The translations under genes were made by a program, and so were the position numbers. Source: Chrysaora quinquecirrha (Eukaryota > Cnidaria > Scyphozoa > Semaeostomeae > Pelagiidae). Taken from it: a stretch of 64,000 nucleotides of DNA. Below, piece by piece: positions 7,830-46,055 of the stretch (positions within the stretch are counted from its first letter, which is position 1; each line of letters begins with the position of its first letter). The notes below the pieces were generated by a model. It was not told where the DNA came from, made no database searches, and saw only the letters and a list, made by a program, of their open reading frames with translations. The stretch lies in assembly GCA_014526335.1 (NCBI GenBank), contig JACTAT010000048.1:902440-966439 (forward strand). The letters are read 5' to 3'.

Positions 7830-10009
7830 ATAACAAAGATTCCTCTACTTGTTGAGCTATGTTTTATGACCATTGAAGGTAATAATAGGTAAAGTGGGAG
7901 AAGGAAAAGTTTGTAAAGTCCATATCAGGGAAAACGTAACTCTTATCTTATTTGCGTATGTATGAATTCAGTCCATTGAAGTTTGTAAAACAGGCGTTCC
8001 TCTTTATTTGTTGAGCTATGTTTTATGACCATTGAAGGTAATAATAGGTAAAGTGGGAGAAGGAAAAGTTTTTAAAGTCCATATCAGGGAAAACGTAACT
8101 CTTATCTTATTCGCGTATGTATGAATTCAGGCCATTGAAGTTTGTAAAACAGGCGTTCCTCTTTATTTGTTTAGGTATGTTTTATGACCATTGAAGGTAA
8201 TAATAGGTAAAGTGGGAGAAGGAAAAGTTTTTAAAGTCCATATCAGGGAAAACGTAACTCTTATCTTATTCGCGTATGTATGAATTCAGTCCATTGAAGT
8301 TTGTAAAACAGGCGTTCCTCTTTATTTGTTTAGGTATGTTTTATGACCATTGAAGGTAATAATAGGTGAAGTGGGAGAAGGAAAAGTTTTTAAAGTCCAT
8401 ATCAGGGAAAACGTAACTCTTATCTTATTCCCGCGTATGTATGAATTCAGTCCATTGAAGTTTGTAAAACAGGCGTTCCTCTTTATTTGTTGAGCTATGT
8501 TTTATGACCATTGAAGGTAATAATAGGTAAAGTGGGAGAAGGAAAAGTTTGTTAAGTCCATATCAGGGAAAACGTAACTCTTATCTTATTCGCGTATGTA
8601 TGAATTCAGTCCATTGAAGTTTGTAAAACAGGCGTTCCTCTTTATTTGTTGAGCTATGTTCTATGACCATTGAAGGTAATAATAGGTAAAGTGGGAGAAG
8701 GAAAAGTTTGTAAAGTCAATATCAGGGAAAACGTAACTCTTATCTTATTTGCGTATGTATGAATTCAATCCATTGAAGTTTGTAAAACAGGCGTTCCTCT
8801 ATATTTGTTTAGGTATGTTTTATGACCATTGAAGGTAATAATAGATAAAGTGGGAGAAGGAAAAGTTTTTAAAGTCCATATCAGGGAAAACGTAACTCTT
8901 ATCTTATTCGCGTATGTATGAATTCAGGCCATTGAAGTTTGTAAAACAGGCGTTCCTCTTTATTTGTTTAGGTATGTTTTATGACCATTGAAGGTAATAA
9001 TAGGTAAAGTGGGAGAAGGAAAAGTTTTAAAGTCCATATCAGGGAAAACGTAACTCTTATCTTATTCGCGTATGTATGAATTCAGGCCATTGAAGTTTGT
9101 AAAACAGGCGTTCCTCTTTATTTGTTTAGGTATGTTTTATGACCATTGAAGGTAATAATAGGTAAAGTGGGAGAAGGAAAAGTTTTTAAAGTCCATATCA
9201 GGGAAAACGTAACTCTTATCGTATTCGCGTATGTATGAATTCAGTCCATTGAAGTTTGTAAAACAGGCGTTCCTCTTTATTTGTTTAGGTATGTTTTATG
9301 ACCATTGAAGGTAATAATAGGTGAAGTGGGAGAAGGAAAAGTTTTTAAAGTCCATATCAGGGAAAACGTAACTCTTATCTTATTCGCGTATGTATGAATT
9401 CAGTCCATTGAAGTTTGTAAAACAGGCGTTCCTCTTTATTTGTTGAGCTATGTTTTATGACCATTGAAGGTAATAATAGGTAAAGTGGGAGAAGGAAAAG
9501 TTTGTTAAGTCCATATCAGGGAAAACGTAACTCTTATCTTATTCGCGTATGTATGAATTCAGTCCATTGAAGTTTGTAAAACAGGCGTTCCTCTTTATTT
9601 GTTGAGCTATGTTCTATGACCATTGAAGGTAATAATAGGTAAAGTGGGAGAAGGAAAAGTTTGTAAAGTCAATATCAGGGAAAACGTAACTCTTATCTTA
9701 TTCGCGTATGTATGAATTCAGTCCATTGAAGTTTGTAAAACAGGCGTTCCTCTATATTTGTTTAGGTATGTTTTATGACCATTGAAGGTAATAATAGATA
9801 AAGTGGGAGAAGGAAAAGTTTTTAAAGTCCATATCAGGGAAAACGTAACTCTTATCTTATTCGCGTATGTATGAATTCAGGCCATTGAAGTTTGTAAAAC
9901 AGGCGTTCCTCTTTATTTGTTTAGGTATGTTTTATGACCATTGAAGGTAATAATAGGTAAAGTGGTAGAAGGAAAAGTTTTTAAAGTCCATATCAGGAAA
10001 AACAAGAGC
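7830..10009. repeat. 159-bp satellite array, ~14 copies, with 955-bp higher-order unit
   Basis: The landmark GTTTTATGACCATTGAAGG recurs at 7861, 8020, 8179, 8338, 8499 and onward, giving a period of 159 bp. Every monomer carries GAATTC. Diagnostic variants (TGAGCTATG versus TTAGGTATG; GTTCTATGACC; AGATAAAG; GGTGAAG) recur in the same order. Copies 4 to 8 match copies 10 to 14 at an offset of 955 bp (8338 to 9293), a six-monomer higher-order repeat. The array stops abruptly near 10009. It is non-coding. Confidence 0.95.
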
Positions 10010-19112: not shown

Positions 19113-19513
19113 AAGAAGCTTATAAATCACTTAGCCTCGATGAGCCTAAAGAATGTTATTTAAATTATTCTTAGGCGTTAGTTTCCATTCACTGAATTTT
19201 TGCTGAGAAACTTTGCATATAAGAAATCAGTGAATGACAGTAATATTTGCTTCGTGTTTTCAGCATAAAGGCAAAAAATGAACTTCAAAATTGTAAGGAA
19301 GGTCAGGTAAATATTAAATGAAATGTTCAGTGACAATAGATCCAGGCCAGGTTACGTAACGTCTTCTTAATTAGAAGGTATAAAACGGATATTAATTTGC
19401 CAAATTCCAACAATGGAAAATTCATTGGAGTATGTTCTAAATTCTGCAAATTTTAGCATTTCTACCAGTTGATTAGCTTGAACTTGAGCCCGTTAAACAC
19501 GACAAACGTGCCC
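19113..19513. other. Flank of the 12-kb element, no gene
   Basis: AT-rich, without a supported frame. Ends with GTGCCCT(A), which is repeated immediately beyond the right end of the large element. Confidence 0.5.
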
Positions 19514-20138
19514 TAAGCAAGGGGGAAAAATGTTTCAACCAATCAGAGTTCATGTTGACAGCGACAACCAACCAATCAGAATGCACGAAAGACAATAGAA
19601 TTGTGCGCTGAAGCGGGTAGTGGCGGCCATTGGGGATGCGAGCTGCGAGATAATGCCCCTCAAATTCCAGCTTTGTTGCACGCGTATTTTCTTGTTAACA
19701 ACTTGAAGCAACCATTTTTTCGAAGAAAAAGGGTTAGTCCAGATTTCCATCGTCTGCATTTTTAAATTTCCGCCTAATACCAATTATATGGCCAAATAAA
19801 TTTGGCCTAATTCGCCCTGTTTGTATACAGCTAAATTTCCTCACAAATAGAAGGTAAAAATCATCTCAAAATCAACACTTACCCTGCAAAACTCCTGGAA
19901 GACCAGGCTTGTCAGTGAACAAAAGTTTATGAATAAAAATAACATCCTCTGCCAGCATGTTTCGCAATTTGAATGCACATTTTGCTGTCAAAACAGAAGA
20001 ACATTCAGCTATCAACTTGCTGCAACCACAATAAATTGGAACTTTGTAAATACCATAACATTATTGGCCTAAGAACAACGAACATAACAACAACGTCAAA
20101 CCGCCCAGGGCCAAGGGCAATCGTTCACATCGAATTCG
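19514..20138. repeat. Left terminal inverted repeat of outer element
   Basis: Pairs with 31151-31767. Contains CCAATCAG boxes near both ends of its first 80 bp and the palindrome GGCCAAATAAATTTGGCC. Frames inside it appear in inverted orientation in the partner repeat and are not genes. Confidence 0.9.
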
Positions 20139-20340
20139 CCTCGTTTCACGTGATAGTTGTTTATCATTTCTATCAAATCAGCTGATTATCGCACGGAGCT
20201 TTCACGTTGCATATTCTTCCCTGCCCTCTCCTGATTTTGTCCATATCTGCTTCTTAATTATAAAAATCGGTTCAGCCCAAGGGGGGCGGGGGCTACATTA
20301 GCATGCCGCTGGGAGGCTTGCCCATGATTTTTCTCATTTA

Positions 20341-20390
20341 TGAGTCACAGTTTCGGCGCGAAAAGGGGTTTTGTACATTGGCGGGAAAGT
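20341..20390 (+). promoter_or_regulatory. Candidate promoter: AP-1 and two E2F-like sites
   Basis: TGAGTCAC (20341-20348), TTTCGGCGCGAAAA (20351-20364) and TTGGCGGGAAA (20378-20388) lie 54-101 bp upstream of the ATG at 20442. The first matches the AP-1 consensus and the others E2F/DP consensus forms. The region is locally GC-rich (GGGGGCGGGGG near 20282). The match is visible in the sequence; the regulatory role is inferred. Confidence 0.4.
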
Positions 20391-20441
20391 AAACTAAGTA
20401 CAGAAAAGATTTTACCTGTATTTGAATAATATTTATTGAGA

Positions 20442-20702
20442 ATGCCAAAGTTATTTACAAAGTCTTGTCATAATCCTCATCACCATCTTTGGAATGGTGA
20501 AGAAGAAGGAAAAATTATTTGCTTGAGAGCAAATGGATTGGCAAAAGTAGCTAACATTTATAAGAGCCTGGAGGCAGAACAGGGTGGACGCAGAGAATAC
20601 TATATTTCAAATAGTTGCTCACATTGTTTACTTAGATTTTGCAAAAAAGGAGTTTTGAGTGATGATTTAGAACAGAACATTTCCACATCCTTGACTGATA
20701 AG
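20442..20702 (+). CDS. Outer-element gene, exon 1
   Basis: 87 codons starting MPKLFTKSC, with CxxH/CxxC-like spacing (KSCHNPHHH; NSCSHCLLRFCKK), possibly a zinc-binding N-terminus. The exon ends AAG|GTTTGA in phase 0, and the following intron (20703-20971) ends with AG just before TTG-TAC-AAC, also phase 0. The ATG at 20442 is preferred because upstream in-frame codons lie in the promoter-like region. Confidence 0.6.
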
Positions 20703-20971
20703 GTTTGAATAACTTTTTCTGGATTTCAATTCATTATTTAAAATAACTAACTAAAAAAAACAAGGGAACATGTGGGATGTTCAAAAAAGTTAATTAGCTA
20801 TGTTAGTAATCAATAGATTTGCTAATCTTCATTTGGGTGCATAATTGTGCCTATTTCATTTGATAGAAGATGCAAAAATATTATTTTCAGTAAAGAAATG
20901 AACACCACTAATACATAGTTCTTTTTTTTCTTTTACCCGATTCATTTAGTTTTAAAGAAATATGGAATTAG

Positions 20972-22925
20972 TTGTACAACTTGAATGAAATGGAATGGGA
21001 ATCCTCATATACAGAAAGCACGGAATCATCCAGTCAAGGAAACAGTTCTTCAACAATCTTCACTTCATCCAGTCAATTACTGCAGTTTTCCTCATCATCT
21101 CATCTTGAAACAATTGAACAGTCATGCCAAACAGAAAGTCTAGGAACAATTACAATAAGTCAAGAAGTGTACGATGACCTTGTCTTGAAGTCTGAAGCAG
21201 CATTTGATCTCCAGGATGAAATAACAAAAGTTAGACAAAAATGTACAGAGTTGTTTGGTAGTGATGGAAATCCTGAAATGGATCCAAAGAAATTTGAATT
21301 AATCTGCCAACAAGCTGGAGCTAACAATATATTCCCCTTTATCTTCAATTCCATTTGTGTGGAAAGAATGTCAGAGAGTCGTTGTGAGCTGAATAGAGTA
21401 CGTGCAATGGTTGTGATCTATATGATGGTCTTTGGTCAATCTGAAAAGGCAAATTGGTTTCAGGTTGCACTTTCCAAAACGCTTTCACAGTATGGAATCA
21501 GTGATTATGGATTGGCCTCTTTACATAACCTTGGTATTGCTGCTCATCCTGGTACTGTCAAGTCAGCATCCCTTTCCTCTGCAGCAAGTCACCTTGATTT
21601 TGTAAAGCATTTTTTCCAAGAAGCAGCTGAGAATCAACATTCTATTGTCTTCTTCATTGATGATTATCACAACATCCATACAAAACACAGGCCATCTGAA
21701 AAGAAACAAACACAAGCCATAAATATGTCAACCCTCCTTGTTAAAATTTTCGAAAACATCAGAGCCATACCAGTTGAATGCAATTCTAGTCCATTGAGTA
21801 AAGATCCTGCTGATGCATCTATTTTGAAGGAAATGGTCAATATGTGTATGTCAAGTTTGTCAAAATCCTATGCCCAAGATATGCCCGATTACATTACAGC
21901 GAAATATTTTGATCCTGCAGCTGAAAGACAAAGGCTTCTGGTGCATGACTATCAGCAAACAGAATTGAAAAAGATGAGGTCAATGGATGATACAAAGTTG
22001 GTAGATTGCCTGGAGATGCCATTAAAAAACTTTCAAGATCTCTTAGCTGCTGTTACTTACATGCTTGAAAATGGCCTCTCCTCCTATCTTGCTAAATTCT
22101 TTGTTCCATTTGTTGGAGACTGGCCCACTCAATTTTACATGCGACAGCTTGTATATTCAAACACAGTATTCTTTTCTGGGCAAAGCAACATCATTCCTTT
22201 CATTGGTCCATTGCATATATCATTGAATTCAAGGGAATCAGTTGTTCTGAAATTTCATGCAGTCTTGAAGGAGCTTTATTCTTTTTTGTTTGGAGCAAAG
22301 GCAGTTTTAGCCAAGAAACCTAAAGCCTGGCGCCAGTCTTTATTGTTAGAATTGCTTTATGGTGGATGGTCCCTGATTCGTGATCAGGTTATCTCAGCTT
22401 TTAGTAACTGTAAGGAAGTGGAATATGTGACACTCCTTAACCTGATTGATTCTTACTGTCCTCTTGTCTTGAGTCTGTATTCAATTGAATTCAAGAACAA
22501 CCATTTTTTGCATTACACTCAATCAGTTCTACGGTGTTGGGTGATGTTGATGGTTTTTAAGAGAAGACATTACAATAAAGTACTTCTCATTCTTCTCACC
22601 ACTTTCAACCATCTAAAAAAATCAAATCATCCACTATATGACATCCTGATGCAATCTTTGAATGCTTTTGATGAATATCCTGTTGAAAATTTTCACTCTG
22701 TTCTCAGAGGCAGGACAAAATCAACTGATACAGGTGAGCAAATTTTTTTTAAAGGCAAGGGAAATTGATGCCTGCAAACATGAATTGCATGAGTTCAAGT
22801 TCAACTGTTTGTGTTTGACAATGTCTGTTTCTGACAAAAGTTGCTCTCCTTCTCTTTTGAAAGAAAGTTCTATGTACAAAAATATACCTACCTTTTTATT
22901 TTTCTTTTCTCCTAAGGAAATGTGA
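20972..22925 (+). pseudogene. Outer-element gene, main exon (DUF6589-like)
   Basis: A ~590-codon open exon: Ser-rich start, coiled segment, then a conserved core including FFIDDYHNIHTKHRP (codons ~227-241), FVGDWPTQFYMRQL, GPLHISLNSRES, ELLYGGWSLIR, YCPLVLSLYSI and DEYPVENFHSVLRGRT. This pattern recalls DUF6589-type proteins found in transposons of cnidarians and fungi. I recall that family and did not search. The paired Asp and later Asp/Glu could be a DDE-type active site (inference). At 22742-22749 a run of eight T shifts the frame: the homologous continuation KAREIDACKHELHEF is in the neighbouring frame to 22925. The copy is therefore probably inactivated. A donor was not settled. Confidence 0.72.
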
Positions 22926-23083
22926 CAAAAGTGGGTGCTCTTTAGTCAGTTCACTTTGGCAAATTTTTCAATGCGGACATTCCTTCCATGTTCAATGCAA
23001 TTTACCAGCTGTCAGCAAGTGCCATGTCTGCAAGGCCCATGTCCAGAAACAGATCGAAGTTTTATCTGGTAAAGCCAATAATT
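22918..23083 (+). CDS. Outer-element gene, RING/PHD-like exon (5' half)
   Basis: After a pyrimidine-rich acceptor (TTTCTCCTAAG, ending 22917) an open frame encodes CDKSGC..QCGHSFHVQC..CHVCKAHV, with paired Cys and a CGHSFH core as in RING/B-box-type fingers, then an Ile/Leu helix. The frame runs into CAATAATT, where the inner element is inserted. It resumes in the same phase at 30928 (GC-AAT-AAT-TCG). The phase relation to the main exon is not resolved because of the frameshift there. Confidence 0.65.
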
Positions 23084-23091
23084 GAGCCGGC

Positions 23092-23250
23092 GTGGCGCGG
23101 AGCGAAGTAAAATAGAGAAATGAGTAAAATATAGAAATGGATATGACGTAAAATACAGAAATCCTATATACTGCTGCAGAAATGCTAAAAGTCGATTTTA
23201 CTAAACATTTTATTGCAACACAAATACATGTGAAAGTATATACCGATCAA
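23092..23250. repeat. Left terminal inverted repeat of inner element
   Basis: Inverted match to 30755-30920. Carries GGCGCGGAGCGAAG, then repeated TAAAATAnAGAAAT motifs, and AAATACATGTGAAAGT at its inner side. Confidence 0.85.
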
Positions 23251-23289
23251 GTTTCCGCGATTTATTGCTTCTCGTCTTCATATTACTCA

Positions 23290-25835
23290 TTTGTTTTTGA
23301 GAATACAGTAGGTAGTTGGTCACTCGTGCAGTGAAACACTTATGGTGACGTACACTGCACTAACTGCGTAGCTCAATTGTCGCTTGTTTTGTATCTTATA
23401 GAATGAGGAAATCACTGGTAATAAAATGAAAACTGATGATGTAGACAATGTTAACGAGAATACAGTAAGTAGTTGGTCACTCGTGCAGTGAAATACTTAT
23501 GGTGACGTACACTGCACTAACTGCGTAGCTCAATTGTCGCTCGTTTTGTATCTTATAGAATGAAGAAATCGCAAGTAAGAAAATGAAAACTGATGATGTA
23601 GACAATGTTAACGAGAATACAGTAAGTAGTTGGTCACTCGTGCAGTGAAATACTTATGGTGACGTACACTGCACTAACTGTGTAGCTCAATTGTCGCTCG
23701 TTTTGTATCTTATAGAATGAAGAAATCGCAAGTAAGAAAATGAAAGCTGATGAGGTAGACAATGTTAACGAGAATACAGTAAGTAGTTAGTCATTTGTGC
23801 AGTGAAATACTTATGGTGACGTACACTGCACTAACTGCGTAGCTCAATTGTCGCTCGTTTTGTATCTTATAGAATGAAGAAATCGCAAGAAAGAAAATTA
23901 AAGCTGATTATGTAGACAATGTTAATTAAAATACAGAAAGTAGTTAGTCATTCGTGCAGTGAAATACTTATGGTGACGTACACTGCACTAACTGTGTAGC
24001 TCAATTGTCGCTCGTTTTGTATCTTATATAATGAAGAAATCGCAAGAAAGAAAATGAAAGCTGATGATGTAGACAATGTTAATCAAAATCCAGTAAGTAG
24101 TTAGTCATTCGTGCAGTGTAATACTTATGGTGACGTACACTGCATTAACTGCGTAGCTCAATTGTCGCTCGTTTTGTATCTTATAGAATGAAGAAATCGC
24201 AAGAAAGAAAATGAAAGCTGATGATGTAGACAATGTTAACGAGAATACAGTAAGTAGTGAGTCATTCGTGCAGTGAAATACTTATGGTGACGTACACTGC
24301 ACTAACTGTGTAGCTCAATTGTCGCTCGTTTTGTATCAAATAGAATGAAGACATCGCAGGAAATAAAATGAAAGCTGATGATGTAGACAATGTTAATGAG
24401 AATACAGTAAGTAGTTGGTCACTCGTGCAGTGAAATACTTATGGTGACGTATACTGCACTAACTGCGTAGCTCAATTGTCGCTCGTTTTGTATTTTATAG
24501 AATGAAGAAATCGCAAGTAAGAAAGTGAAAGCTGATGATGTAGACAATGTTAACGAGAATACAGTATGTAGTTAGTCATTCGTGCAGTGAAATGCTTCTG
24601 GTGACGTACATTGCACTAACTACGTAGCTCAATTGTTGCTCGTTTTGTATCTTATAGAATGAAGAAATCGCAAGAAAAAAATGAAAGCTGATGATGTAGA
24701 CAATGTTAACGAGAATACAGTAAGTAGTTAGTCATTTGTGCAGTGAAATACTTACAGTGACGTACACTGCACTAACTGCGTAGCTCAATTGTCGCTCGTT
24801 TTGTATCTTATAGAATGAAGAAATCGCAAGTAAGAAAATGAAAGCTCATGATGTAGACAATGTTAACGAGAATACAGTAAGTAGTTAGTCATTCGTGCAG
24901 TGAAATACTTATGGTGACGTAGCTAAACTGCACTAACTGCGTAGCTCAATTGTCGCTCGTTTGTATCTCATAGAATGAGGACATCGCAAGAAAGAAAATG
25001 AAAGCTGATGATGTAGACAATGTTAATGAGAATACAGTAAGTAGTTGGTCACTAGTGCAGTGAATTACTTATGGTGACGTACACTGCACTAACTGCGTAG
25101 CTCAATTGTGGCTCGTTTTGTATCTTATAGAATGAAAAAATTGCAAGTAAGAAAATGAAAGCTGATGATGTAGACAATGTTAACGAGAATACAGTAAATA
25201 GTTAGTCATTCGTGCAGTGAAATACTTATGGTGACGTACACTGCACTAACTGCGTAGCTCAATTGTCGCTCGTTTTGTATCTTATAGAATGAAGAAATCG
25301 CAAGAAAGAAAATGAAAGCTGATGATGTAGACAATGTTAACGAGAATACAGTAAGTAGTGAGTCATTCGTGCAGTGAAATACTTATGGTGACGTACACTG
25401 CACTAACTGCGTAGCTCAAGTGTCGCTCGTTTTGTATCTTATAGAATGAAGAAATCGCAAGTAAGAAAATGAAAGCTGATGATGTAGACAATGTTAACGA
25501 GAATACAGTAAGTAGTTAGTCATTCGTGCAGTGAAATACTTATGGTGACGTACACTGCACTAACTGCGTAGCTCAATTGTCGCTCGTTTTGCATCTTATA
25601 GAATGAAGAAATCGCAAGTAAGAAAATGAAAGCTGATGATGTAGACAATGTTAATCAAAATACAGTAAGTGGTTAGTCATTCATGCAGTGAAATACTTAT
25701 GGTGACGTACACTGCACTAACTGTGTAGCTCAATTGTCGCTCGTTTTGTATCAAATAGAATGAAGACATCGCAAGAAAGAAAATGAAAGCTGATGATGTA
25801 GACAATGTTAATGAGAATACAGTAAGTAAAAGTAA
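23290..25835 (+). repeat. 157-bp exon-intron satellite, 16 units
   Basis: CTTATGGTGACGTAC recurs at 23339, 23496, 23653 and onward, a 157-bp period. Each unit has a pyrimidine-rich tract ending TCTTATAG, a 63-nt open block (begins AATGAAGAAATCGC, ends GAGAATACA) and GTAAGTAGT. The 63 nt read as 21 codons, NEEIASKKMK through VNENT, in phase 0 at both borders. The last unit joins in phase 0 to the exon at 26001. Lesions by eye: unit 4 has a TAA and no donor; unit 5 lost the acceptor AG; unit 9 has a 1-nt deletion; unit 12 has an altered donor. Most others look spliceable. Confidence 0.9.
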
Positions 25836-26000
25836 TAAGTCATTGGTATAGTGGAAAAGTTATCGCGACATCTATCATATTTTGAATAATTTCTTAGGTT
25901 GATTTCTGGATTTCTTATTTTTCATAGGTTGTTGTTTAGACGCTTGTATATTTGCCTGTGAATGTCCATAGAATTATTCTTATCATTAATCTTTCTTTAG

Positions 26001-27063
26001 GCTACAGCTACAGTGGTTACAGATAATGAGGATGGAGTTGATGATGATGTGCTGCATGTAATGTCGAGTGCTAACTTGCAGTTACCAAGCATAGATTACA
26101 CTTCTGAGATACAACAGTACTGCATTGCAACTGAACATCTAACCATGGAACGCAACTTCACTGTTACAATTCCATGTGATCCTGTTCTGTTAGAAGCTAA
26201 AGACTACCTACAGCGTAGTGAAGTCGACGGTAATCAGTTGTGTGTTCGAATTGGAGATAGTTTCTTCGATTTGAAGGGGATCAATCATTGCTTAAAATTG
26301 GATCAGCTCATGAAAAGAAGAGAAGATATTGCTGCGAAACGTACATGGTTCATTTGCGTTTCACGTAATTTACAGCAACCTGAGGGCACCCCGAGCCTTG
26401 ATAAAACTGCAGCTATTAACCTTCTCAAGGCAATCCACGAAGATTCAAAAACAGGAAGACAATGCCACTTGGAAGCATTAATTGGAAATAGGTGGATAAA
26501 CGGTGCTATCATTGATAGCATGATCTCCATTCTAAATTGTCAATCAAAGGACACATTTGCATTCAATTTCAATGTGACGGAAAGCCTAGAAAAAATACCA
26601 TCCGTAGCTTACAGAGCTTTCAAGAAGAAATGGTCTACTAGCTTGCCAAAAAGGCTTGTTTTCTCCATTCATATAAGCATGTTTGGGGAGAAGACCTACA
26701 AATGTGACCGTCAACGGCATACGCTACCCAGCTAATCATTTTGCATCTGGTGTATACGACTTTGAGTCAAATACATTGTTTTATGGCGATTCTCTTGGTT
26801 TTCCAATGCCTGAAGGTTTAGAAAACGCATTTCGATGTCTCTTGGGACTGATACTGAATGGAACCAAGGCAAGTGAGTGCCTATTTGAATCAGTTCACAA
26901 CAATCCAAATAACCACCTGAATCCAACTAATCATGGTTGCAACGAACTTTGTTGGCCCTTTTTCCCCCTGTATAGTGATGGATCCATTTGCGGCATCGCA
27001 ACAATGATAGTCTTATGCATGGCATCTCTAGATTTTGCATCCTTCCTTTCCATGCGGCGATCG
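26001..27063 (+). pseudogene. Inner-element gene: Ulp1-like cysteine protease region
   Basis: Starts after the acceptor CTTTCTTTAG (26000) with GCT-ACA-GCT, in phase with the last satellite exon. An acidic start (DNEDGVDDDV) is followed by a Ulp1/C48-like fold: GNRWINGAIIDSMI (the usual W-L-N-D region), PANHFASGVYDF (catalytic His), FYGDSLGFP (catalytic Asp), YSDGSICGIATMI (catalytic Cys in a CG motif). The usual Gln before the Cys is not evident. A frameshift near 26690 separates the first part from the His/Asp/Cys part. The exon ends TCG|GTAAGT. Role inferred: SUMO/ubiquitin-like deconjugation, as in Ulp1 domains carried by several transposon families. Confidence 0.72.
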
Positions 27064-27174
27064 GTAAGTCAACATTTGTGTCAATTTATGTATCTGAAAG
27101 ACATTTCTGCATTTAACCACTTTCTGAGGCTGGTCACAGCCAAATGGCTAATATCTGGGTTTGTCGACCTCTAG
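27064..27174 (+). other. Intron in the inner-element gene
   Basis: 111 bp, from TCG|GTAAGT to GACCTCTAG|GAT. Both sides are in phase 0, giving ..SMRRS|DIRTNRS... It removes an in-frame TAG that would otherwise end the frame. Confidence 0.75.
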
Positions 27175-29312
27175 GATATACGAACAAACAGATCCAAAGA
27201 ATCATCTGCTATGAACACCTCCAAATTCCAAGGCTTGGAGTTTGATAAAGCTGAAGAGGTAGCTGAAGAGGTGGAAAACACAGATTCTACAGCAGCAACA
27301 GCTTCGGATGAAAACACTTTTGCGTTTAGAGACGCTAGCCATATGAAGGGGAACGAAGGCTACAAGATGTTTACAAGGACATGCACAGATGCTGTGGTAA
27401 AATGCAATGAGAAGAGAAAACATTTCCACTGTCGTCTATGCCCTTTGTCAAAGGTGGAATTCTTCGAATCGAAAATAAAATGTCACATTGAAAGCTCCCA
27501 TCTCAACGCAAAGAGGGTTGTTAGACACAACAACATCATGATAACACCGTGCAAACTAGAGCATGTGGATAAAGCATTCAAGAAGAGTTCTGTTTCGCAT
27601 TATCATTGCCCCGAATGTGGAAATGCCATACAACAAAAAGAACCATTTGAGAAACATCTGCATGGTCACGAAGTTAGAGAGCGTAACCCAACTGATGTTC
27701 GACAACCTGCCAAAAAGATCAAGTAAGTCTAGAAAGGACATGTCGGAACCAGATAATAACAAGGAAGCAGAGTCACTAGTCAGAAGACAAGATCCAAAAG
27801 AGCGCGTTCAGTGTGCAATTTGTAAGATGCTCATTAGTGCAAGGAATATGAATCGACATATGAAGGCAAAGCACGAAATTCAAATGAATCATACAGCGGT
27901 CTGTTGTGATGGAGCAAGAGGCATTTATATGGTCAAGAGATCTCATCATGGTGGTGTTGGCTTTCCAATACATGTGCAGAAAATAGTTACATCATCGAAT
28001 AGCAACGTTATTGACTGTGAAGTAGCAAGCTGCAAAACTCAACTGGAAATGGCAGAGCGGTCGGGAATGAGAGGACGTGAGTGCTCTCATCTATTGTTGG
28101 TAAACGAAGCGCATTACCCGACCAAGGTCCAGTTGAATGAATTTGCACTGACTGAACTAAGTGCTGCTAACAAGTTTAAAGTTTTAAAGCAGGAAACCGT
28201 AGATAGCTGTTGCAGACAGAACGAGTTGGCTTGTCAGCAGAATGCACCAGCAGTTGTTGAGTGGGACGATGGCAACTTCATTCATCTATCCGTTTATGAT
28301 GGCAAACGCCGGTTCTTTCCTGTCCGCCTACACTGCATCGTTACTTACCAGAAAGAGAAGCAGCAGCTAGATTGTCGATGCGGTCTAAACCATTGCTTCT
28401 GCTTGCACAAAGCTATGGCATTGTGGTACCTGTATCAAACAGGAAGAATCAAAAACACAGTTGATGTTGGGGCAAAGTTGAACGAAGAAGATGATGATGC
28501 AGATCCTGGAGAAAATACATATCTAGATGATGCAGAGGAAGAGCAATGCGAGTTGCATGGAGAAAAGCAAACAATTATATACCCGCCTGTTGAGGATGAA
28601 ATAGCTCTAAAAATGATTAAATACATGAGAGAACATAAACGCATCCCTTTTCCACCTCTGGAATGGCATCAGGCAATCGATGCACAAGAGCTTCCTCGCT
28701 GTTTCAAACCAACAGAATGACAATGCCATGAGTGCAAAGGGAAACTAGCAGGACCTTTCCGCATCACACAGAAGGCAAAAATCCTGACAATGACCGAAAT
28801 GTTGGAAGGAGTGGAAACGTTTTTCAAAGTGTGCAATAAATGCAACAATTACTACAGGTATCAAGAATTTGAAGACGGAGTGCATAACTTCGATGACAGC
28901 CTCCTTATTGGTATAGATGTATGCATATTTCTACGGTCAGCAGCAAAGAACCACACTGCCGTTGGTACCGTATGCAGCATATTGTCAGATATATGGGATT
29001 TCAAGGTCCATGAGGCAAAAGTTTTAAATGCTGAGGAGAGAGCTGATATAGGCACTTGAGAAGGAGTCATTCAACAGCGTAATCTTTCAGAGCACACCTC
29101 GAGTGAAGCCAAGAACATTGTTCAGCTGGGATATAGAATTGTACTGCCATTGTAGGAAACCATTTATTTCAGAGCCCCTCACCAAATGCACTGCTTGCAA
29201 AGGATGGTTCCATGAGCGTTGTGAAACCGGAGACATGAAAGACTCTTCGTGGAAATGCAAAGAATGCAAAGTGAAAACTAACATACCAATATCGCAAACA
29301 GTGCTTAGCTAG
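27175..29312 (+). pseudogene. Inner-element gene: C2H2, SWIM/CxC4 and PHD fingers
   Basis: In order: an acidic linker; C2H2 fingers (CRLCPLSK..H..H; YHCPECGNAIQQ..H..H; VQCAICKMLISARNMNRHMKAKH); a SWIM/CxC4-like cluster (CRCGLNHCFCLHKAMALW, ~28375); a CxxC pair with CNKCNNYYRYQEF and NFDDSLLIGIDVC; and a C-terminal PHD (YCHCRKPF..CTACKGWFHERC..WKCKECK, 29146-29268), ending at 29312. The middle resembles the HMGXB3 / KDZ-associated cysteine clusters as I know them. Breaks: 1-nt frameshift near 27720, in-frame TGA at 28718, frameshift near 29055. Few lesions suggest a fairly young pseudogene. Confidence 0.78.
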
Positions 29313-29779
29313 ACAGCGCTTTTCCATTTTGATCATGTTGAGTTTTTGTTCTGTTATGTTATAGCTTTCAACTTGTTATTTTTCAGCTAACTATATCGAC
29401 AAAACATATGTAGGATGGTCTACCCCTGTGTTTGTACAGACACTGCCGCATCACTTAAAATTACAATGTCATCCATGTGCTCCAGGTTTCTTTATGCTTG
29501 TGAACCTAATAAGATTATGTCCATCTGCCGAAAAATATAATTTTGTAATAGTGTAATCATGTTATGTAATGATGTAGTGCACATTACAGATGTAAGTTAT
29601 CTTATCAGTAATAGAATTTAGGGTACAACGACAAGAGTACTGCAACAGAATGAAGTGGAAAGACTAGACCTTACCTAATATGCATGAAATAAGTGATGCA
29701 GTGGCGCCTGTACAAAGACGTTGGTAGAATATCCTACACATAAGCTATGAGAATAGAAACGTTTCCATTTGTAATACTA
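29313..29779. other. 3' region of the inner gene, no gene seen
   Basis: AT-rich sequence between the PHD stop and the 156-bp array. Presumed 3' UTR and spacer of the inner element. Confidence 0.5.
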
Positions 29780-30440
29780 GAAAAGTAAAAGTTACAATTT
29801 CTCTATTTTACGCCAATGTGTTTTTCCAAACCATGACGTCAGAAGCAAAAAAATACAAAGAGATTTGCTTCAAGTCACCTTTGTTTCCTATTCTATTTGA
29901 TCTTCTGCATTTATTCAATTGATTAAGTGAGGTTAGAAAAGTAAAAGTTACAATTTCTCTATTTTACGCCAATGTGATTTTACAAACCATGATGTCAGAA
30001 GCAAAAAAATACAAAGAGATTTGCTTCAATTCACCTTCGTTTCCTATTCTATTTGATCTTCTGCATTTATTCAATTGATTAAATGAGGTTAGTAAAGTAA
30101 AAGTTACAATTTCTCTATTTTACGCCAATGTGTTTTTCCAAACCATGACATCAGAAGCAAAAAAATACAAAAAGATTTGCTTCAAGTCACCTTTGTTTCC
30201 AATTCTATTTGATCTTCTGCATTTATTCAATTGATTAAATGAGGTTGGAAAAGTAAAAGTTACAATTTCTCTATTTTACGCTTACATGTTTTTTCTAAAC
30301 TATGACGTCAGAAGTAAAAAATATAAATAGATCTGCGTTAATTTACGTTCGCATCTTATTCTAATTTGATCTCCTGCAATCTGCATTTATTAGATTGATT
30401 TCAATAGATGAGACAAGTAAGAGTTACAGTTTCTCGATTT
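29780..30440. repeat. 156-bp tandem repeat, ~4.2 copies
   Basis: AAAAGTAAAAGTTACA recurs at 29781, 29937, 30093 and 30249 and, degraded, near 30411. Each unit contains TTTCTCTATTTTACGCC, which resembles the TCTATTTTAC motif of the inner element's terminal repeats. These look like subterminal repeats of that element. Confidence 0.9.
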
Positions 30441-30485
30441 TACGCCTATAAAATTTTCAGATTCTTTCTCTATCTTTCTCTTTCT

Positions 30486-30522
30486 CTTATACATGAGTAT
30501 GTGCAACTTACTCATGTATAAG
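30486..30522. repeat. Perfect 14-bp hairpin
   Basis: CTTATACATGAGTA (30486-30499) and its exact complement (30509-30522) around a 9-nt loop, between the 156-bp array and the right TIR of the inner element. No T-run follows, so a terminator role is not indicated. Confidence 0.7.
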
Positions 30523-30754
30523 AATTACAGTAAAATACTTCAGTACTTTGAAAAAAAAGACCATCTTTCATGCAGTTTTGGGCCACGCAGTTTGCAACAG
30601 ATTTGCTCACGCGCTGAAGATTCCGCCGCACTGCGAGCAAGAATCTCCAGCAGCGCTGCCTCGTTTTAAAAATTACCCTTCGACTGGACCTGGCCTAACT
30701 TTCATGGTCAACTCCATGGATGTCAAGATTGTTGGTGAAAATTGGTGAATTGAG

Positions 30755-30920
30755 AAGGTAAATTCGATCGGTATTGACTTTCACATGTATTTGTGTTGCA
30801 ATAAAATGTTTAAAATCGATTTTTAGCATTTCTGCAGCAGTATATAGGATTTCTGTATTTTACGTCATATCCATTTCTATATTTTACTCATTTCTCTATT
30901 TTACTTCGCTCCGCGCCAGG
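30755..30920. repeat. Right terminal inverted repeat of inner element
   Basis: Inverted match to 23092-23250, ending CGCTCCGCGCCA. Differences from the left copy are few. Confidence 0.85.
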
Positions 30921-30927
30921 ATGGATG

Positions 30928-31123
30928 CAATAATTCGGTGTCGAATCGCGGAGCTGCAGAACCAGAAGATGATGATGATCTCCAAGAAGAACAGGACGAT
31001 GATGATGTGGAAAATGATGAAGATGATTTGAATTGCACAAGTGTTGATGTCGAGAAAGAGGCAGTCTTTGAATTGATACAGGAAATTTCATCATGGTCAC
31101 GTCCTCCACAGCCTCCATGTTGA
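30928..31123 (+). CDS. Outer-element gene, last exon (3' half)
   Basis: Continues the finger exon after the inserted element: NNSVSNRGAAEPEDDDD, a strongly acidic stretch, then EAVFELIQEISSWSRPPQPP and a stop at 31121-31123, about 30 bp before the right TIR. The frame is open across both copies of the 8-bp duplication, which is what an insertion into an intact coding exon predicts. Confidence 0.7.
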
Positions 31124-31150
31124 TCAGCAGAAAGTGAAAAAGAAATAACT

Positions 31151-31767
31151 CACGTGGACGATCGCCCTTGGCCCTCGGCAGTTTGACGTTGTTGTTATGT
31201 TCGTTGTTCTTAGGCCAATAATGTTATGGTATTTACAAAGTTCCAGTTTATTGTGGTTGCAGCAAGTTGATAGCTGAATGGTCTTCTGTTTTGACAGCAA
31301 AATGTGCATTCAAATTGCAAAACATGCTGGCAGAGGATGTTATTTTTATTCATAAACTTTTGTTCACTGACAAGCCTTGTCTTCCAGGAGTTTTGCAGGG
31401 TAAGTGTTGATTTTAAGATGATTTTTACCTTCGATTTGTGAGGAAATTTAGCTGTATACAAACAGGGCGAATTAGGCCAAATTTATTTGGCCATATAATT
31501 GATATTAGGCGGAAATTTAAAAATGCAAACGATGGAAATCTGGACTAACCCTTTTTCTTCGAAAAGATGGTTGCTTCGAGTTGTTAACAAGAAAATACAC
31601 GCGCAACAAAGCTGGAATTTGAGGGGCATTATCTCGCAGCTCGCATCCTCAATGGCCGCCACTTCCCCCTTCAGCGCAAAATTCTATTGTCTTTCGTGCA
31701 TTCTGATTGGTTGGTTGTAGCTGTCAACATGAATTCTGATTGGTTGAAACATTTTTCCCCCTTGCTT
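31151..31767. repeat. Right terminal inverted repeat of outer element
   Basis: Inverted copy of 19514-20138 with a few percent differences. It begins right after the last coding exon of the outer gene. Confidence 0.9.
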
Positions 31768-31979
31768 GTGCCCTATATAAAACGAAAGTAGACCGGCTGG
31801 TTCCCGAAAAGCTCAAAAGAGCTCGATGTTAATTGCAAGCAGCGAAAGCGATAAATGTACGCAAACTTGAACGAAACACAGCCAAAGCAAAAGGCACAGT
31901 GAGCACAGTATAAAGACATAGTTAAGTCAATACGGTAACCAACCACATTTGCGATTATCCAACGCAATATGATAAAGCT
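31768..31979. other. Right flank of outer element
   Basis: Begins with the second GTGCCCT(A) copy, then a TATATAAAA stretch. No gene seen. Confidence 0.4.
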
Positions 31980-44049: not shown

Positions 44050-45490
44050 TTAAGAATATTCCCCACACTAATCATTACCTAATCCTCACTAATCCTTAAC
44101 TAATTCTCACTAATCATTAACTTATACTTGCTAATTATTACCGAGTCCTTACCTAATCCTCACTATTCATTAACTAATCCTCACTTAATCCCAACTGATC
44201 CTAAGCTAATCCTTGCTAATTCTTGCTAATCATTACCTAATCCTTACCTAATCCTCACTAATCCTCACTATTCATAAACTAATCCTTAGCTAATCCCAAC
44301 TGATCCTAAGCTAATCCCTGCTAATCATTACCTAATCATTACCTTATTCTCAATAACCCTTAAATAATCTTCAATATCCATTATTTAATCCTTAGCTAAT
44401 CCCAACTAATCCTAAGCTAATCCTCATTAATCATTAACTAATCATTAACTAATCCCTACTAGTCCCAACTAATCCTAAATTAATTACCTAATCCTAATTA
44501 ATCCTTACATAATCATTAACTAATCGCTACTCAACCTAACTATTCCTAAACTAATCCTTAGCTAATCTCAACTAATCCTTAATAAATCCTTGCTTATTAT
44601 TACTTAATCCTTAGCTAATCCTACTTAATCCTTAATTAATCATCTCTAATCATTATTTAATCCTTACATAATCCTCACTAATCCCTACCTAATCCCTACA
44701 TAATCCTCACTTATCATTAGCTAATCCCTACTAATCCTTAGCTAATCTTTACTAATTTTCAGCCAATCCTTAAGTAATCCTTATTAATGCTTACCTAATC
44801 ATTAGCTTATCATTGCCCCATTACCCATCAATTAAAGTCTTAAGTGATGGTTCGCAAGTGCCAGGGTATGTAATGAGGCAATGATAAGCTAATCATTAGG
44901 TAAGCATTAATGAGGATTAGGTAAGAATTAGCTCAGGATTAGTGAGGATTAGCTTAGAATTAGTAGAGATTAATTAATGTTTAGTGAGTATTAGTTAGGA
45001 ATAGTGAGGATTAGGTAGGGATTAGTGAGGATTATGTAAGGATCAAATAATGATTAGTAAGGATTATTTAAGGATAAGAGGGGATAAGCTAAGGATTAGG
45101 TAATGTTTAACAAGGATTTGTTAAGGATTAGCTAATGATTAGTGAGGATTTGCTTAGGATTAGTTGGGATAAGCTAAGGGTTAGATAATGATTAGGTAAG
45201 GATTAGTTTAGGATTAGTTAATGATTAGTGAGGAAAAGGTAAGGATTAGGTAGTGATTATTTAAAGATTAGTTGGGATTAGTCAAGGATTAGGTAATGAT
45301 TAGTGATGATTAGTTAAGGATTAGTTGAGATTAGCTAAGGATTAGTTTAGGAATAGTTAGGATTAGTAGGGATTAATTAGTGATTAGGTAAGCACTAATG
45401 AGGACTAGTTAAGGATTAGCTCAGCATTAGTGAGGATTAGCTAAGGATTAGTAGGGATTAGCTAATGATTAGTGAGGATTAGTTAGGATT
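44050..45490. repeat. Large AT-rich foldback (TAATCCT / AGGATTA arms)
   Basis: The left arm (44050-44820) consists of ~6/12-bp units CTAATCCTCACTAATCATTA and similar. The right arm (44875-45490) is the complementary AGGATTAGTGAGGATTAG type. Nearest the centre the arms match closely: AATGCTTACCTAATCATTAG (44787-44806) against its complement at ~44889-44908. The central ~60 bp (TTAAAGTCTTAAGTGATGG..) is unique. The whole would form a ~1.4-kb cruciform. Non-coding. Confidence 0.88.
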
Positions 45491-45492
45491 AG

Positions 45493-46055
45493 TGTCATAC
45501 AGCTACTTTTTAGGACTATAAGTACGTCATGCGGTTAGTTTTCGGTGCTTTGTCAGTTGGCAGCGTTCGCGTTCGCGCCGTTTCATTTCTGTTTTTCCCA
45601 TGGTTTTCTTTGCCATTTTTGCGTCATTTAGTTTCTCTGCGCGGGTCATAAGGCATCTCGCGCGCCTTATTAGCATGGCTCATGTGTTATTGGCTCCTCG
45701 TTATTCAGTTGATTAGGCACCTTTAGTTATTATCATGTTTAGCTTATTCTTTTCTATATTTGTAAGAATGCTTTGTTTTACTTCTTTGCCAATTCGGCTA
45801 GACGCTTCATTTGTGTATTTAAGTTTGCTCATTTCATCAGTTTATTTAACTTATACTTAACAGTTGAGTTCATCGGATATGAGTTGGTGAAAATTATATG
45901 CAAGTGTTTTATTGTGTGTTGTCTGCAGCGCTCATTAGGTGCTTGTGAAAGACCTAAATGGAGTTTGCCTGTCGTCAGGATGGGGTTGGTGCCCCTTTGA
46001 GCAGCAACAATGTGTGTTGTGTGTTTTCGGACAAATTTTGGGAAACCGAATTACA
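45493..46055 (+). repeat. Orphan 5' LTR with primer-binding site
   Basis: Begins TGTCATACAGC and ends ..GAATTACA, followed at 46056 by TTGGTGTCAGGTGTGGGATC. A TTGGTGTCA.. start right after an LTR is typical of Ty3/Gypsy-like primer-binding regions. About 80 bp of leader follows, and then the retroelement is lost. It directly abuts the AT-rich foldback. Confidence 0.6.

Follow-up and report, generated by a model that had tools for sequence, protein, structure and literature searches.

Does the tandem array at 23299-25828 of the 64,000-nucleotide stretch of Chrysaora quinquecirrha DNA analysed here (the window) consist of exons of a transposon gene, each copied together with an intron, or is it a satellite in which splice signals and an open frame coincide? 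A preliminary description of this locus had proposed sixteen exon-plus-intron units of about 157 bp with 63-nt blocks, and both Tandem Repeats Finder and alignment of the units bore this out. The array has a period of 157, 16.1 copies and 93% matches and reads on the forward strand, as do the exon blocks, the introns and the gene described below.

Each unit comprises a 63-nt block of 21 codons in phase 0 (consensus NEEIASKKMKADDVDNVNENT) and a 94-nt intron-like spacer containing CACTAAC, a candidate branch site. The sixteen blocks occupy 23402-25821 and start at 23402, 23559, 23716, 23873, 24030, 24187, 24344, 24501, 24658 (62 nt), 24814, 24974, 25131, 25288, 25445, 25602 and 25759; thirteen of the fifteen block-to-block steps measure 157 and the other two 156 and 160. 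The acceptor is exactly TCTTATAG in 11 of the 16 units and its AG is kept in 15, while the donor is GTAAGT in 13 and retains GT in 15. An open frame is preserved in 14 blocks, and AG, GT and frame are jointly intact in 13 of the 16 units. The exceptions are unit 4 (23873-24029), with an in-frame TAA stop and a lost donor (GAAAGT), unit 5 (24030-24186), whose acceptor AG is lost to TATAT immediately 5' of 24030, and unit 9 (24658-24813), where a 1-nt deletion in the exon block destroys the frame. The edges of the array lie within about 10 nt of an exon end.

Phase relations extend beyond the array on both sides. The last block (25759-25821) and the ORF at 26001 agree in phase (phase 0), as the preliminary description had noted, and between them lies a last intron-like stretch of 179 nt (25822-26000) that begins with the array donor GTAAGT, is otherwise unlike the array and ends in the acceptor TTTCTTTAG. 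Because the ORF is immediately preceded by the TAG codon of its own acceptor, the block and the ORF share a frame solely if spliced. Upstream, 23182-23307 is a candidate exon 0 on the strength of its open frame and phase: 42 codons are open from an ATG within the left terminal inverted repeat (TIR) to GAGAATACA|GTAGGT, the frame matches that of the array, and its end is a partial first array copy. The corresponding stretch of the right TIR matches exon 0 except for a 3-nt gap and some substitutions. The complete splice set, together with phase agreement with open frames on both sides of the array, argues for the exon reading.

The array had been placed within a transposon, and TIRs and a target duplication now delimit that element. 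The inner transposon spans 7844 bp (23084-30927) and is flanked by an 8-bp target duplication, CAATAATT, at 23076-23083 and 30928-30935; once it is removed, the rejoined flanks stay open in one frame along the 240 bases inspected. Its left TIR (23093-23254) pairs with the right one (30760-30918), the outer 108 bp being 99% and the inner 53 bp 92% complementary, and the outermost 9 bp of both ends of the element are mostly mismatched. Near the 3' end lies a second, subterminal array (29778-30446; period 156 bp, 4.2 copies) bearing the TIR motif TTTCTCTATTTTACG at 29798, 29954, 30110 and 30266; these repeated motifs could serve as extra transposase-binding sites. The array-bearing transposon sits in turn within an outer element (19516-31767) with 614-bp TIRs (arms 19515-20128 and 31154-31767, 96%) and its own 8-bp target duplication, GTGCCCTA (19508-19515 and 31768-31775), and the arrangement is thus a nested insertion. 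The outer element measures 12.3 kb and contains a 598-aa ORF (20972-22768) that has no Pfam match above the cut-off. Elsewhere in the window, a 159-bp tandem array occupies 7849-10003, with 13.5 copies and 97% matches.

Downstream of the 157-bp array, 26001-29312 holds the remnant of one long coding exon with Ulp1-like, zinc-finger-like, SWIM-like (by eye), CxC4 and PHD-like parts. Ulp1 and SWIM modules are typical of Zisupton/KDZ transposons, and the CxC4 cysteine cluster, a further likeness to that group, was recognised by Pfam (PF18717, 33 bits against a cut-off of 26.9, E 6e-8); the PHD-like finger scores below the Pfam cut-off. Six ORF pieces from 26001-29312 gave no Pfam match to a transposase domain at E up to 1. 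In contrast to Zisupton/KDZ elements, no KDZ catalytic domain was recognised in the window copy, and we therefore call the gene KDZ-related rather than a proven member. The catalytic domain may have been lost at a frame break near 29050, between the CxC4 cluster and the PHD-like finger.

The Ulp1-like character that the preliminary description had assigned to this gene is supported by profile comparison. Pfam gave no match to Ulp1 for this part, and a profile of four relatives matches yeast Ulp1 (PDB 1euv) with E 5e-6, over profile positions 107-178 only; zinc-finger chains were also matched in this structure profile search, with weaker E-values. Of the five relatives found, four (37-39% identity) were aligned; P0008, at 31% across 23% of the query, did not enter the profile. 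All four aligned relatives share H243, D260, Q319 and C325 (P0007 numbering, residues identified by eye), and the window copy has the H, D and C together with a Tyr at the Gln column. Searches with other parts of the array and gene yielded nothing further: a protein query that combined six repeat blocks with the Ulp1 part found no match among the 8000 most word-sharing candidates scored, a procedure that missed the known relatives too; the SWIM part compared with viral contigs gave four stretches fitting the pattern and no relatives; and the Ulp1 DNA had no match in phage records.

The gene in the window is decayed. In-frame stops occur at 27172-27174 and 28718-28720, and frame breaks near 26690, 27700 and 29050. 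An intron at 27079-27174 was considered and rejected, since P0007 and the other aligned relatives code straight through the region; this makes the TAG at 27172 a premature stop instead of the end of an intron. Likewise P0001, which is related to the SWIM part, is coding at the position of the TGA at 28718. Together with the Tyr at the Gln column, these stops and frame breaks mark the copy as dead. The gene models of P0004, P0005 and P0007 start about 10-60 residues before the conserved part and that of P0006 starts inside it, none with a repeat tail, and database gene models of this kind may fail to join small exons. Before its zinc-finger part, P0001 contains IENVRKDGTKVK three times, spaced every 15 residues; these copies are charged, which shows that charged repeats recur in the family and is not evidence of an exon-array origin.

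How readily a repeat of this size could resemble an exon was assessed with 20,000 dinucleotide-shuffled units, in which a counterpart was scored by donor, acceptor, CTAAC branch candidate and open symmetric block. A comparable phase-0 exon arose in 0.43% of trials with the donor GTAAGT and in 0.78% with GTRAGT, percentages that do not yet require phase agreement with the neighbouring exon. The 157-bp unit itself contains seven donor/acceptor pairs, one of which, that of the 63-nt block, is complete with a branch candidate. One 159-bp unit, tested on both strands, has eleven such pairs and none with a branch candidate; they include one symmetric 27-nt block open in frame that has a donor and an acceptor and lacks the branch candidate. 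One 156-bp unit, likewise tested on both strands, offered no exon candidate.

Variation among the units is uneven across codon positions. Variable sites in the exon blocks number 9/21, 0/21 and 10/21 at codon positions 1, 2 and 3, and the empty class has a hypergeometric P of 7e-5 when the frame is taken from the splice sites; this value and the shuffling frequencies are indicative only, because the codon-position statistic and the splice test were chosen after the unit had been singled out and the units share ancestry. An empty codon class appears in 6 of the 157 circular 63-nt windows, all starting no more than 4 nt from the exon start, and intron variable sites counted in the same phase number 12, 10 and 6. 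The absence of variation at position 2 hints at coding constraint during part of the divergence.

The preliminary description had stated that both splice signals are retained, which is true of most units, but they show no conservation beyond that of the intron interior: changed cells amount to 3/96 in the donor hexamer, 7/120 in the last 8 nt of the intron and 36/1203 in the interior. The excess conservation that it had proposed to look for is thus lacking at the splice sites, and for the frame it takes the sole form of the invariant codon position. A hand count of 20 distinct substitutions in the exon blocks gave 5 silent, 14 replacement and 1 stop, where 20% silent, 77% replacement and 2.4% stop would be expected without selection; these proportions are near neutral, and there is therefore no clear purifying selection on the residues. 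Mean pairwise divergence among units 1-15 is 6.8% in the exon and 5.7% in the intron, in agreement with the earlier remark that the two are equally similar between copies, and such parity fits homogenisation.

We consider it somewhat more probable than not that one intron and one exon were tandemly duplicated and homogenised within a KDZ/Zisupton-related transposon, and that the array served as exons in a working ancestor. Under this reading of the DNA, a segment comprising an intron and a 63-nt exon would have been duplicated at the 5' end of the Ulp1/zinc-finger gene, with exchange points near the exon end, and unequal exchange would keep the units alike across exon and intron together, a process also considered for the iterated introns found in spider silk genes (PMC9779670). 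In the working ancestor, transcription would have produced a pre-mRNA starting in or near the left TIR; its units would have been spliced together as symmetric phase-0 exons and translated into an acidic, lysine-rich tail that would vary in length and precede the Ulp1 domain at the N terminus of the protein. An advantage to the element would be a further supposition.

The alternative that survives best is that the units are exonic by origin and the array expanded in this copy only, neutrally, and never served the element. We regard this as quite possible, if short of an even chance; because it overlaps with the reading that we prefer, the probabilities given to the explanations do not sum to one. 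The exact pattern TCTTATAG-N50-80-ACAGTAAGT was scanned over 327,998,173 bases in 740 contigs and matched 13 places, nine within the array (units 1, 2, 3, 6, 9, 10, 13, 14 and 15) and four elsewhere with unrelated blocks, and the reversed control pattern matched five places in the same assembly. By this exact scan the assembly holds no second array with the splice signature, as expansion in a single copy would predict. A closely similar second array would very likely have appeared, but a diverged one, which an exact pattern misses, or an unassembled one would escape. The load of lesions also agrees with neutral expansion, being similar in the gene (two stops and three breaks in 3.3 kb) and in the exon blocks (one stop and one frameshift in about 1 kb). 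Against it stands the invariant codon position 2, with the coding constraint that this suggests for part of the divergence.

A satellite origin strikes us as rather unlikely. In that view the array would parallel the 156-bp one as a subterminal repeat with a nucleosome-scale period, its splice signals and open frame being coincidental or its units at most untranslated 5' exons. The near-equal periods of the three arrays in the window (157, 156 and 159 bp) would be well accommodated by such an origin, as would the TIR motif in the 29778-30446 array, the near-neutral silent and replacement proportions and the absence of extra conservation at splice sites. However, neither of the two TIR-motif patterns tested matches the 157-bp array, and among the three units compared, the 157-bp one alone combines a complete phase-0 exon and a branch site. 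Nor would a satellite be expected to leave codon position 2 invariant or to fit in phase the open frames on either side.

A more ambitious form of the exon reading seems unlikely to us, namely that a self-homogenising exon-intron satellite constitutes the first part of the gene and that exchange alters the N-terminal tail in in-frame steps of 21 residues. The proposal of the preliminary description that a charged N-terminal repeat is tuned through unit number and exon skipping, extended here to an effect of tail length on the activity of the Ulp1-bearing protein, is very unlikely: symmetric exons would permit it and the three repeats of P0001 might seem to parallel it, but the gene of the window copy carries at least five disruptive lesions, the exact scan gave no second array, and the P0001 repeat differs in sequence and place.

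Homogenised genes of iterated exons and introns are known, as exemplified by flagelliform silk, and the introns within an Argiope MaSp2 gene average 97.6% similarity (PMC9779670). As in those spidroin genes, exon and intron are here repeated together and are highly similar within one gene (PMC9779670). In contrast, the spidroin repeats, as described there, belong to a host structural protein gene, whereas the present array has a 63-nt exon in a 157-bp unit and lies in a transposon gene known from its sequence alone. Schistosoma micro-exon genes likewise consist of many short exons (3-81 bp), but their introns are long, reaching 5 kb, and they encode secreted proteins, unlike one short homogenised exon-plus-intron unit (PMC10526429). 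Zisupton/KDZ elements share with the inner transposon an 8-bp target duplication and TIRs, and the available part of their description makes no mention of an exon array (PMC12730594). Among the open-licence papers listed, none describes an exon-intron array within a transposon in its title or abstract opening.

Homogenised exon-intron repeats are thus a known gene structure, of which a 157-bp unit within a transposon gene is a variant. We know of no earlier case of exon-intron co-amplification inside a transposon gene. If transcribed, the array would represent a very compact form of such co-amplification (157 bp), and would offer a simple system in which to study how introns shape unequal exchange and how a long run of near-identical splice sites is handled. 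If not transcribed, it would illustrate that a nucleosome-sized satellite can mimic an exon array. Repeats of another kind occur further downstream in the window, where a large inverted pair at 44067-45493 contains arrays of degenerate CTAATCCTTA-like repeats.
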